Shown: in pieces, positions 2,890 through 5,349 of the stretch | Layout of the letters: each line of letters starts with the position of its first letter | How positions within the stretch are numbered: position 1 is the first letter of the stretch | Assembly (NCBI RefSeq): GCF_000426665.1 | Contig: NZ_AUFU01000001.1 | Span: forward strand, 434,001-498,000 | Direction: 5' to 3' | DNA from: Centipeda artemidis DSM 19719 | GTDB lineage: Bacteria; Bacillota; Negativicutes; Selenomonadales; Selenomonadaceae | Length of the DNA: 64,000 bases | Program-made: the position numbers and the translations under genes | The notes under the pieces: model-generated | Seen by the model: the letters and a program-made list of their open reading frames with translations, nothing else | Told to the model about the DNA's origin: nothing | The model's database searches: none

Positions 2890-3477
2890 CTATGCGGGAA
2901 GGTCTACGCCCCACGTTTTTTCTTTTGGCGTCGGCACTTTGATATCCGCAAAGCCCTCCGTCCAATGCGTCTGATTGATGCCGTAGGGCATGATATGAAA
3001 GCACTCCTGCGGATGATAACAAAAGCCCGGCAGATGCTCAAAACGCGTAACGGCCTCCTCTGCCGCTGCCCTCGAATCATAAACGCCGATAAGTTTCCCT
3101 TCGGCAAATGACCTCACGCGATACACATGCTCTAAGATGTAAACATAACGCGCAACCGCATCTCCCCCGCTGTTCGTTCTTTGTAATGTGCGGTGTGCCG
3201 CTCCCCGCGTCTGCGATTCGTACCAAATTTCACACTCGTCGTATTCGTCGCCCTCATCGACTGCGTGATAAAATCCTCCTTTCCAATCGGCATCTTCATT
3301 TAACCGATAAATTTCTACAGAAAAATGCTCTCGTGAAAACTCCTTAAAACCGCTGAGATGCATAATCCGCTCGACGGCTTCCTTCGCCCTCTTTTCCGAA
3401 GAATACGCGCCGATATATTTCACTTCATCGAAGTCAGCAACCTCATAACTGTGCTGAACAAGATGGATCTGCTCCAT
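2890..3477 (-). CDS. Protein with two copies of a short alpha/beta domain
   Basis: The 195-residue protein contains an obvious internal duplication. Copy 1 begins VQHSYEV, continues YIGAYSS and HLSGFKEF, and ends DWKGGF. Copy 2 begins LEHVYRV, continues LIGVYDS and HLPGFCYH, and ends HWTEGF. Each copy is about 60 residues with a central Ala/Glu-rich helix. This resembles small 'DUF7336'-type domains seen singly in other bacteria, but I give that name with low confidence. The ATG at 3477 has AAGGGG upstream; the frame is open 8 codons further. There is no signal peptide, so it is probably cytoplasmic. Its start lies inside the end of the gene before it, suggesting translational coupling. Confidence 0.8.
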   Translation of the reverse strand: MEQIHLVQHSYEVADFDEVKYIGAYSSEKRAKEAVERIMHLSGFKEFSREHFSVEIYRLNEDADWKGGFYHAVDEGDEYDECEIWYESQTRGAAHRTLQRTNSGGDAVARYVYILEHVYRVRSFAEGKLIGVYDSRAAAEEAVTRFEHLPGFCYHPQECFHIMPYGINQTHWTEGFADIKVPTPKEKTWGVDLPA

Positions 3478-3628
3478 AAATGTTCCCCTTATTCTTGGCA
3501 ACGCTAAGCCGCTTCTCAGCTTCCTCCAATGTTAGCCAACCTCTCTCCTCGCCGGATTGTTTTCCTTGTTCAAGCTCGTTCATGAGACGACGTAACGCCC
3601 GCATTTTCTCCAACGCCCGCATGTCCAA
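3443..3628 (-). CDS. Small unknown protein, probable TTG start
   Basis: A 61-residue, highly charged helical protein. The motif EQGKQSGEERGWLTLEEAEK is the type found at the C-terminal side of small antitoxin-like proteins (a 'GWI/L..EE' tail), so an antitoxin-like role is possible, but no toxin is adjacent. The best ribosome-binding site, AAGGGAGA, is 7 nt from a TTG at 3628; an ATG two codons later (3622) is 13 nt away and a further ATG at 3658 has no site. It overlaps the start of the next gene by 35 bp in another frame, implying coupled translation. The call is less certain because of its size. Confidence 0.5.
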   Translation of the reverse strand: MDMRALEKMRALRRLMNELEQGKQSGEERGWLTLEEAEKRLSVAKNKGNIYGADPSCSAQL

Positions 3629-3758
3629 ACTATTATCTCCCTTCTGTCCATATATCATTTTACCACAAGTCCATAATCTATATGACATAAAATGCACACT
3701 CCCAAAATGATGGGGGCGTATTTTTTGCTGTATTCCCCCGTTGTAATACAAAAATATA

Positions 3759-3802
3759 AACTATACTTTGCATTTTTGTAGACAAAATTGTAAAGTATAG
3801 TT
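3759..3802. promoter_or_regulatory. 44-bp concentric palindrome, candidate operator
   Basis: Outer arms AACTATACTTT (3759-3769) and AAAGTATAGTT (3792-3802) and inner arms TTTTGT (3774-3779) and ACAAAA (3782-3787) share one centre at 3780.5. Of the 22 possible base pairs across the centre, 19 match. It covers the spacer and -35 of the AAA-ATPase promoter and lies between divergent genes. The shape suggests a binding site for a dimeric or tetrameric regulator. Confidence 0.6.
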
Positions 3803-3807
3803 ATAAT
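3779..3807 (+). promoter_or_regulatory. Promoter of the AAA/DUF4143 gene
   Basis: TAGACA (3779-3784) and TATAAT (3802-3807) are 17 bp apart and 25 bp before the start codon. The -35 and spacer lie inside the 44-bp palindrome. Confidence 0.7.
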
Positions 3808-3831
3808 TACTGCAAAGGCAGGTGACGCAGA

Positions 3832-5280
3832 ATGTCCATCATCAACAAGGAAAACATCCTAAAGGTACTCATAGGCTACAATCCTTGGTGGAAAACCGGT
3901 ACGGTAATCCCCGCTCTGACAAAGCATTATAAGCGCTTTGCTTTCTACGAGACAATGGCTCGTTTAGCGGAAACAGAGATGCGCCGCATCCTCGTCCTCA
4001 GCGGTATGCGGCGCGTCGGCAAAACGACCATTCAATACCAGTTAATCGAGGCGCTGCTCGCGCGCGGAATTTCTCCACAGCGAATTCTCTTTATCTCGAT
4101 GGATCACCCAATGCTGAAACTCAGCGACTTTCAAGAAATCCTCGACTGCTATCATGAAAACATTTATGTTGATCATGATGTTTACTATTTTTTTGATGAA
4201 ATTCAATACGTTCGGGACTGGGATAAATGGCTCAAGGTCATCTATGACAGCACACCGGAGACACAGGTCGTCGCAACGGGGTCTGCAAGCCCCGCGCTGA
4301 TGAAGGGCAATCAAGAGAGCGGCGTCGGCCGTTGGTCGGTAATCCCCGTCCCGACGCTGTCATTCTACGAATATTGCAACCTCCTGTCACTTGACCGCCC
4401 GCAGCTGCCGGAGGACCTCAAAGCGACCGATCTGCCCTATATGCAGCGTCCGCAGCAGACCGAAATCATGCTCCAGTTATCCAAGGTGCAACAGCACTTT
4501 ACCCGCTACCTGCAAGTGGGCGGATTTCCTGAACTTGCACTTGCAAGCAACGACATTCTCGCACAGCAAATTATGCGGGAGGATGTCGTCGACAAAGTGC
4601 TCAAGCGCGATCTTCCCTCGCTCTACGCCATCCGCAACATCACGGAGCTGGAGCGCATCTTCCTCTACCTTTGCAGCGTATCTTCAGAGATTGTCTCCGT
4701 CGATGCGCTCTCAAAAGAGCTGAGCGGCGTCTCCCGCCCCACCGTAGAGAACTACATCCGGTTTCTGGAGAGCGCCAATCTCATCTATCGGAGCTGGCCC
4801 ATCGACATGGCGGGCAAGCGCGTTCTCAAAGCGCGCCCCAAAATCTACATCGCCGACGCCGCCATCAGAAACGCCGTCCTCATGGACGATACTCTGCTCA
4901 CCGATCCGATTCAGATGGGGAAAATCGTCGAAACGGCCGTCTACAAACACGTCGCCGCATTCTATTATCGATATGTCACCTCCATCGGTTATTTTCGCGG
5001 CGGAACAAAGAACAAAGAAGTCGATATTGTCATTGACTATCCGATGGCGAAAAAAATACTCATCGAGGTAAAATATCGTGAAAATACGACCATCTCGGAT
5101 GACGACGCCGTCAGCGTGCTGGCAGACGAGGCGTCGGCTGCCATTGTCATTACAAAGACGGCAAATGATCTAGGTCTGCAAATGACGAAAACAAGAGCAA
5201 TCCTCCTTCGTATTCCGGCATTTGCCTTTCTCTATCTGCTCGGCAATGCCGAGCGGCACGGTTATCACTACATCTCCTAA
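3832..5280 (+). CDS. AAA family ATPase with C-terminal DUF4143 domain
   Basis: A 482-residue member of the widespread AAA_14/DUF4143 group, whose biological role is not settled. The Walker A motif is MRRVGKTT near residue 60 and the Walker B motif YYFFDEIQYV near residue 120, followed by a sensor-like VVATGSAS. The C-terminal third contains the DUF4143 region with a PD-(D/E)xK-like pattern (KEVDIVIDY, then ILIEVKYRE). Such a pattern is nuclease-like in other families, but activity is only inferred. The start ATG has AGGTGA upstream. It is the only plus-strand gene between metK and rqcH, has its own promoter and a bidirectional terminator behind it, and sits in an AT-richer patch. These features suit a mobile or accessory gene. 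Confidence 0.92.
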   Translation: MSIINKENILKVLIGYNPWWKTGTVIPALTKHYKRFAFYETMARLAETEMRRILVLSGMRRVGKTTIQYQLIEALLARGISPQRILFISMDHPMLKLSDFQEILDCYHENIYVDHDVYYFFDEIQYVRDWDKWLKVIYDSTPETQVVATGSASPALMKGNQESGVGRWSVIPVPTLSFYEYCNLLSLDRPQLPEDLKATDLPYMQRPQQTEIMLQLSKVQQHFTRYLQVGGFPELALASNDILAQQIMREDVVDKVLKRDLPSLYAIRNITELERIFLYLCSVSSEIVSVDALSKELSGVSRPTVENYIRFLESANLIYRSWPIDMAGKRVLKARPKIYIADAAIRNAVLMDDTLLTDPIQMGKIVETAVYKHVAAFYYRYVTSIGYFRGGTKNKEVDIVIDYPMAKKILIEVKYRENTTISDDDAVSVLADEASAAIVITKTANDLGLQMTKTRAILLRIPAFAFLYLLGNAERHGYHYIS

Positions 5281-5284
5281 CGAT

Positions 5285-5332
5285 AAGAACCTGATGAATC
5301 AACTCTCTGCGCTAATTCATCAGGTTCTTTTT
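5285..5332 (+). terminator. Bidirectional intrinsic terminator
   Basis: AAGAACCTGATGAAT (5285-5299) pairs perfectly with ATTCATCAGGTTCTT (5315-5329), then T's follow to 5332. It lies between the convergent AAA-ATPase and ogt genes and can serve both. Confidence 0.9.
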
Positions 5333-5349
5333 CTATGCGTTTCACTGTA

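Follow-up and report, generated by a model that had tools for sequence, protein, structure and literature searches.

Introduction

With reference to the literature, it can be observed that autoregulation through palindromes has long been known, and several described systems come close to the arrangement considered here. In the part of the account available (PMC12255303), the RptR operator of defence islands represses a defence locus through a short run of repeats, each of them a small palindrome, which overlap the -10 element and are conserved together with their regulator, RptR itself being a separate small protein with repeats of 9 bp; the autoregulated toxin-antitoxin operators covered in the same part likewise involve self-binding at a palindrome in the own promoter. 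Single-gene defence candidates of the PDC-S01 or AAA_14/DUF4143 type, in which an ATPase is fused to a PD-(D/E)XK domain, are treated in excerpts of two further accounts (PMC12988326, PMC13356809), and in the excerpt of the former PDC-S01 takes fourth place by frequency among the defences of all prokaryotes. The passages available from both accounts do not mention expression control or an operator. The literature searched gave no tested function for PDC-S01, and among the literature matches listed no operator or expression control of AAA_14/DUF4143 or PDC-S01 genes was found described.

In this study, the promoter of one such gene was investigated in the window, a stretch of 64,000 nt from Centipeda artemidis DSM 19719 (contig NZ_AUFU01000001.1, positions 434,001 to 498,000). 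With a probability of roughly 65%, and judging from sequence comparisons, we consider a large palindrome in this promoter to be part of a private autoregulatory operator array, by which a stand-alone STAND-ATPase/nuclease gene would be repressed by its own product. Such an array would resemble that of RptR, with small palindromic units that overlap the -10 element and are conserved together with the regulator. It differs from RptR in that no conserved regulator gene is found near the AAA_14/DUF4143 gene and in its unit of 33-34 bp with two kinds of dyad, and from toxin-antitoxin operators in that no conserved partner of the gene was found and the predicted binder is the enzyme itself.

Results

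Promoter, gene and palindrome in the window

The initial annotation had described a 44-bp palindrome at positions 3759-3802 over a good promoter of an AAA/DUF4143 gene, and this description was confirmed. The coordinates and the pairing (19 of 22 positions) are correct, the promoter has a 17-nt spacer and agrees with the consensus at 11 of 12 positions, and the Pfam profiles PF13173 (AAA_14; 111.9 bits, cut-off 27) and PF13635 (DUF4143; 106.5 bits, cut-off 28.1) recognize the gene product. The palindrome takes in the -35 element and the whole spacer and extends one base into the -10 element (Table 1). A likely terminator directly 3' of the gene would make it a stand-alone unit. The neighbouring protein encoded at 2890-3480 on the minus strand contains two DUF7336 stretches.

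Table 1. Features of the promoter, gene and encoded domains, in coordinates of the window
Feature	Position	Strand	Basis and remarks
34-bp unit around A1	3747..3780	+	17-nt arms, 82% complementary, gapless
Site A1, 20-bp near-palindrome	3754..3773, centre 3763.5	+	core AACTA/TACTT; position conserved in orthologues; 20.2 bits with the 28-bp matrix
44-bp palindrome	3759..3802	+	part of A1, B, part of A2
Dyad B	3774..3787, centre 3780.5	+	TTTTGT-AG-ACAAAA; midway between A1 and A2; overlaps -35
-35 element TAGACA	3779..3784	+	promoter search
Site A2, second A copy	3788..3807, centre 3797.5	+	17.3 bits; overlaps spacer and -10
-10 element TATAAT	3802..3807	+	coincides with right arm of A2
Likely ribosome-binding site AGGTGA	3820..3825	+	by eye
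AAA_14/DUF4143 ATPase gene, 482 aa	3832..5280	+	PADLOC PDC-S01
AAA_14 P-loop ATPase domain	3982..4377, residues 51-182	+	Pfam, alignment, model
Winged helix-turn-helix	4681..4794, residues 284-321	+	alignment, model
C-terminal PD-(D/E)XK-like domain	4837..5277, residues 336-482	+	alignment, model
Hairpin with U run, likely terminator	5285..5334	+	15-bp stem, -20.1 kcal/mol, z -5.9

A repeat search recovered the palindrome as arms of 3759-3779 and 3782-3802 with 90% complementarity, and among all 44-bp stretches of the 64-kb window it scores highest and is the sole one with at least 17 pairs. When the window was simulated 30 times with a first-order Markov model, and the local AT-rich 172 bp 5000 times, 19 pairs were never reached. 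The pattern of the outer arms occurs once in the window with up to 3 mismatches allowed, and the 2.35-Mb genome holds one further match only, with 3 mismatches, on contig 17.

Two features of the same DNA had been absent from the initial annotation: a direct repeat (3748-3768 and 3782-3802) with a spacing of 34, and a second palindrome, the 34-bp unit of Table 1, which overlaps the first and whose centre at 3763.5 is the centre conserved among relatives. A single 44-bp operator was rejected on the evidence of these repeats, a symmetry scan and the spacing, and an A-B-A array of dyads fits instead. The centres of A1 and A2 are exactly 34 bp apart and the centre of dyad B is that of the 44-bp palindrome, which is the array seen from B, with A1 and A2 as its outer arms. 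Each of the two A sites in the window departs from the 20-bp consensus at 3 letters. An RNA hairpin or attenuator was also rejected, as transcription from the predicted -10 element would begin downstream of A1, B and A2. A perfect 13-nt inverted repeat (3558-3570 and 3844-3856), with arms 273 nt apart, is probably due to chance.

Conservation of the site upstream of orthologues

A protein search gave 79 loci, 78 of them at 61-98% identity and nearly all from Bacillota by title, and the window together with 71 of these loci formed a set of 72 promoters. The other eight loci (L037, L045, L070, L072, L077, L080, L082 and L084) were dropped from the promoter counts as the match did not run from the start codon or was without upstream DNA, and four with broken or cut frames (L006, L071, L078 and L083) were left out of the protein alignment and of a wider count of 87 promoters. 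The initial annotation had named lack of conservation upstream of orthologous genes as the outcome that would speak against it; all 72 promoters carry the site. The core AAGTATACTT is exact in 41, has one mismatch in 22 and two mismatches in 9. The centre of site A precedes the start codon by 62-83 nt and lies about 15 nt upstream of TTGACA, the -35 element of most orthologue promoters. Its consensus is ATTnWAAGTA/TACTTWnAAT, and the flanks, which were not used in finding the core, are conserved and symmetric as well (AAWnATTnW-AAGTA/TACTT-WnAATnWTT). Leave-one-out scores with the 28-bp matrix ranged from 1.8 to 34.3 bits with a median of 28.5, and 67 of the 72 promoters reached at least 11.8 bits, the five lowest recording 1.8, 4.7, 7.4, 8.7 and 10.2.

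Among more divergent homologues, the site is kept at 48-69% identity, with at least 8 bits in 13 of 18 genes and no site of that strength in the remaining 5, and is lost at 30-41% identity (1 of 14); in other DUF4143 groups it was recorded for 1 of 61. In two promoters (L087 and L060) the symmetry around A reaches arms of 30-32 bp, or 60-64 bp in total, mirroring the -35 element. In Selenomonas sp. F0473 (L006, from 3001) the orthologue frame stops after 29 codons and its remainder lies in another frame; the operator array is retained despite the frame break.

Periodicity and alternation of the dyads

Scanning of 482 kb of the loci with the matrix disclosed 16 further sites of at least 12 bits, of which 12 are separated from the main site by exactly 33, 34 or 68 bp, and the same matrix on the reversed sequences of the loci gave 1. 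In the 87 promoters, which include more distant homologues, a second or third A site of at least 6 bits was detected in 19 and no second one in 68, and 25 of the 27 secondary hits fall at -33, -34, +33, +34 or -68 bp. This second-site trait requires 13 changes on the protein tree, at least 11 of them forced by well-supported branches, so that A copies have been repeatedly gained or lost at the same spacing.

A symmetry scan over 200 centres in 71 aligned promoters placed its three highest peaks at 0 (0.787 paired), +17 (0.597) and -17 (0.534), where the mean over all centres was 0.32; A and B dyads hence follow one another in turn at 17-bp steps. The +17 dyad has the consensus TTGTTGACAA, which contains the -35 element, and the letters of dyad B are TTGTnnACAA in most promoters and different in a sister branch. 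Arms were compared within and between sequences in promoters whose main site reached at least 9 bits, 70 of them close and 13 more distant. In the 70, arms fitted each other better when taken from one sequence than from different ones; this held for A, for the outer arms and for each B dyad (p 0.0005, the lowest value that 2000 permutations allow, in a test that ignores relatedness), and two control centres gave p 0.27 and 0.97. Seven more distant sequences form a group with 33-bp spacing, in which the +16.5 dyad is symmetric (0.83 paired, p 0.016), with the letters TTAG-A-CTAA in two of the seven, and the -16.5 dyad is not (0.48 paired, p 1.0).

Restriction of the site to the gene

The search for the 20-bp pattern in host genomes covered 41 of them, namely the window's own and 40 that belong to loci among the 79. 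With at most one mismatch, 37 sites were found in 29 genomes, and 34 of the 37 lie no more than 150 nt upstream of the gene considered here; the reversed pattern had no site in the 41 genomes. Twelve of them, among these the window's, lack a site at this threshold, and with 3 mismatches the window's genome shows A1, A2 and one site on contig 17 only. As exceptions, L042 harbors, about 2282 nt downstream of the gene start, a lone 48-bp stretch that repeats the promoter at 87.5% identity and near which no gene remnant was found, L007 has a solitary site that precedes its main one by 756 bp, and G045 a one-mismatch site elsewhere in the genome. Seen across these sequences, the site appears as an autoregulatory operator would, kept together with its gene and rarely present elsewhere.

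In 398 Bacillota genomes, 37 of which have a homologue (E <= 1e-30), there was no exact site A pattern and there were 35 one-mismatch sites. Seven of these lie a short way upstream of a homologue; the 28 away from a homologue stand against 15 for the reversed control, about a twofold excess. The 28 make up part of the loci L249-L278. An operator-like site at G396:C1:1085103-1085122 (L269) has, some 69 bp further on, a match that comprises the C-terminal third of the protein only, and looks like a deletion remnant. A downstream scan of the loci detected no A copy that recurs at one position past the gene; from 1440 to 2000 nt after the start codon, a site of at least 9 bits occurred in 3 of 69 loci (L018, L033 and L046), at three different places.

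Domains of the protein

Seven PDC-S01 models of PADLOC, a candidate and unproven anti-phage class, matched the protein (best E 7.4e-66, residues 48-420). Its AlphaFold2 model, with a mean pLDDT of 84.5, consists of an ATPase, a winged helix-turn-helix and a C-terminal domain. The ATPase residues G58, R61, G63, K64, T65, T66 and D122-E123 are invariant in 68 orthologues. The initial annotation had described such genes as lacking an obvious DNA-binding domain, and this is contradicted by the predicted model together with the sequence: the helices of the winged helix-turn-helix comprise residues 270-282, 290-296 and 302-314, and R302, T304 and Y308 of the last, the putative recognition helix, are invariant in the 68 orthologues. 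NCBIfam gave weak matches to helix-turn-helix proteins over residues 275-321 (E 0.03 and 0.09).

With VIA, mostly over residues 18-364, the model matched NLR, CED-4, 2QEN and 2FNA chains at Z 13.8-16.2, including RPP1 (Z 16.2, rmsd 3.9, 260 aligned) and CED-4 (Z 15.3, rmsd 4.6, 285 aligned). The modelled fold displays the NTPase, helical domain and winged helix of a NOD module, by which the protein is predicted to be a STAND NTPase. The archaeal ATPases 2QEN (Z 14.8, rmsd 4.7, 271 aligned) and 2FNA (Z 14.3, rmsd 4.3, 271 aligned), as well as Orc1/Cdc6 on origin DNA (2QBY chain B; Z 11.3, rmsd 5.1, 189 aligned), share the layout of an ATPase with a winged helix; these alignments end before the nuclease-like domain of the PDC-S01 protein and their identity is only 10-16%. 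PDB sequence relatives consisted of 15 weak matches, all but one of them pentatricopeptide repeat chains (designed or other), and were set aside as chance.

In the C-terminal domain, E367, D398, E412 and K414 are invariant in 35 sequences; among the 68 orthologues E367 and D398 are invariant, and E412 and K414 occur in 90% or more. Modelled alone (pLDDT 80.1), the domain had its best VIA match, at a modest Z of 8.7 (rmsd 3.8, 129 aligned), with the small subunit of R.BspD6I, followed by a McrBC chain (Z 7.7, rmsd 3.9, 123 aligned), and Foldseek on its own was weak (best E 6.8e-3, McrBC chain). Fold and D/E-x-K residues in the model are those of the PD-(D/E)XK group, and the domain is a predicted nuclease.

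Distribution and neighbours of the gene

The 72 loci contain 479 frames of at least 80 aa, of which 77 belong to the family of the gene itself. No neighbour of at least 80 aa is conserved in the 72 loci, the widest other family, which looks like a serine recombinase by its sequence, occurring in 10. A toxin-antitoxin operon was rejected on this lack of a conserved partner of at least 80 aa and on the likely terminator directly after the gene in the window. Of 14 genus genomes, 3 hold a close relative, namely those of the window, G009 and G011 (73% identical). In the protein tree the copies of the window and G011 cluster together (98/97) inside sequences of Clostridia and other Bacillota, and this grouping argues against separate transfers into the genus. 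Hosts of site-bearing genes include Selenomonas, Oscillospiraceae, Holdemania, Tuberibacillus and Desulfosporosinus.

Comparison of the genus genomes for empty sites yielded no insertion boundaries. The left-hand neighbour (1609-2790) is present in only 2 of the 14 genomes; close relatives of the right-hand neighbour were found in G009, G005 and G007, the matches in the latter two not extending past that gene. Phage records gave 9 weak protein matches, none covering 80% of the protein, plasmid records gave 12, all below 60% identity, and a PHROGs search with the protein gave no match.

Discussion

Proposed mechanism and alternatives

Most probably, the gene's own protein binds the array. The site is nearly private to the gene (34 of 37 sites), it is present in many Bacillota without conserved neighbours, and the protein carries a winged helix-turn-helix; these observations favour self-binding, and of the binders that the initial annotation had offered, the ATPase itself fits them best. 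We suppose that the protein would bind through its winged helix-turn-helix as a symmetric oligomer with one protomer per approximately 17 bp, neighbouring protomers meeting at the alternating two-fold axes of A and B, and that further operator units could be added every 34 bp. The bound protein would cover the -35 element and, where A2 is present as in the window, also the spacer and the -10 element. From the position of the sites we judge it fairly likely that the outcome is repression of the own gene, which would keep a potentially harmful nuclease at a low level until the protein is drawn away or its nucleotide state changes. The initial annotation's suggestion of a control site is supported, with its large symmetrical site being an array of A and B dyads and not one operator.

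Several observations count against self-binding. In STAND proteins, the winged helix often does not serve in DNA binding, and the best fold matches of the model are NLRs and CED-4. Further, A1 and A2 of the window miss the consensus in places, site-less host genomes, low-scoring orthologue sites and solitary sites exist, one-mismatch sites away from a homologue are in excess, a second A site is limited to a minority of promoters, and the -16.5 dyad of the 33-bp branch is asymmetric.

Some of these observations would suit a host-encoded, unlinked transcription factor, common in Bacillota, that binds the site and controls the gene. The dyad layout would serve any dimeric factor, the link between protein and site is an indirect one, and in the 398 genomes the one-mismatch sites away from a homologue exceed the reversed control; but the host genomes offer few other sites, no exact site occurs in the 398 genomes, and the gene is sporadic yet retains its site in distant hosts. 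We therefore consider such a factor, which the initial annotation had also entertained, to be unlikely, and less likely than the ATPase itself. The same operator and the same protein might instead activate the promoter, since A1 is centred near -50 from the likely start and the 68 promoters lacking a second A site are left with one upstream of the -35 element, a place that activators use as well. Dyad B overlaps the -35 element, however, A2 covers the -10 element where it lies downstream, which is a repressor-like layout, and the promoters are near consensus, and activation seems to us quite improbable. A recombination, transposition or target site for a moving gene, or one cut by the nuclease, is very unlikely, and the recombinase site of the initial annotation is disfavoured with it. 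The differing neighbours of the gene, the serine-recombinase-like family near some loci, the nuclease-like domain of the protein and the weaker sites within 550 nt after the gene in 3 of 69 loci would agree with mobility; against this, the strong copy invariably occupies the promoter, in a set phase relative to the -35 element, extra copies keep their steps of 33-34 bp inside the promoter region, and the fixed copy at the other end that an attachment site would have is missing.

Self-repression through a private operator, if correct, would provide a biochemical handle on the PDC-S01 system, that is, a defined DNA ligand, a predicted binding unit of 17/34 bp and a reporter, as well as a route to finding its trigger. 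Should the effector act as its own repressor, one polypeptide would combine regulation with sensing.

Palindromes in other DUF4143 subfamilies

A wider reading, which we put forward as speculative and rather doubtful, is that a DNA-templated oligomer on its own promoter, with two alternating two-fold contacts per 17 bp, acts as repressor and sensor at once, and that the palindromes are matched to the subfamilies. Invading nucleic acid or a phage product would draw the protein away or switch its nucleotide state, upon which the promoter would open and the nuclease would be made; each DUF4143 subfamily with an intact helix-turn-helix would carry matching palindromes, its promoter being the DNA word that its protein reads.

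With regard to this, other DUF4143 subfamilies often have different promoter palindromes. A promoter was counted as palindromic when its best palindrome beat all of 100 dinucleotide shuffles (p <= 0.01), which applied to 33 of 73 orthologues, 5 of 18 genes of the 48-69% group and 1 of 14 of the 30-41% group, in addition to 11 of 23 in a 400-aa group with a clear helix-turn-helix, 1 of 17 in a 450-aa group with a degenerate one, 3 of 17 in a 410-aa group, none of 4 in a 425-aa group and 8 of 117 neighbouring genes. Three partial genes (L133, L150 and L153) were left ungrouped, L213 had no frame and four duplicate loci were removed. As a lead, a clear helix-turn-helix may go with a palindromic promoter more often than a degenerate one, in a comparison whose groups were drawn after seeing the sequences and include near-copies, and whose start codons were estimated. 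Own palindromes were observed upstream of L166-L169, L230, L234, L236, L237, L240 and L242-L244, the site of L236, from a second DUF4143 subfamily, being AATAAGTTTTTGCATT..AATGCAAAAACTTATT. The palindromes upstream of L166, L167, L169, L236, L237 and L242 are long and different, and several are doubled, for example TTTTGTCAGTTATAACTGACAAAA and TTTTTATAGTATACTATAAAAA.
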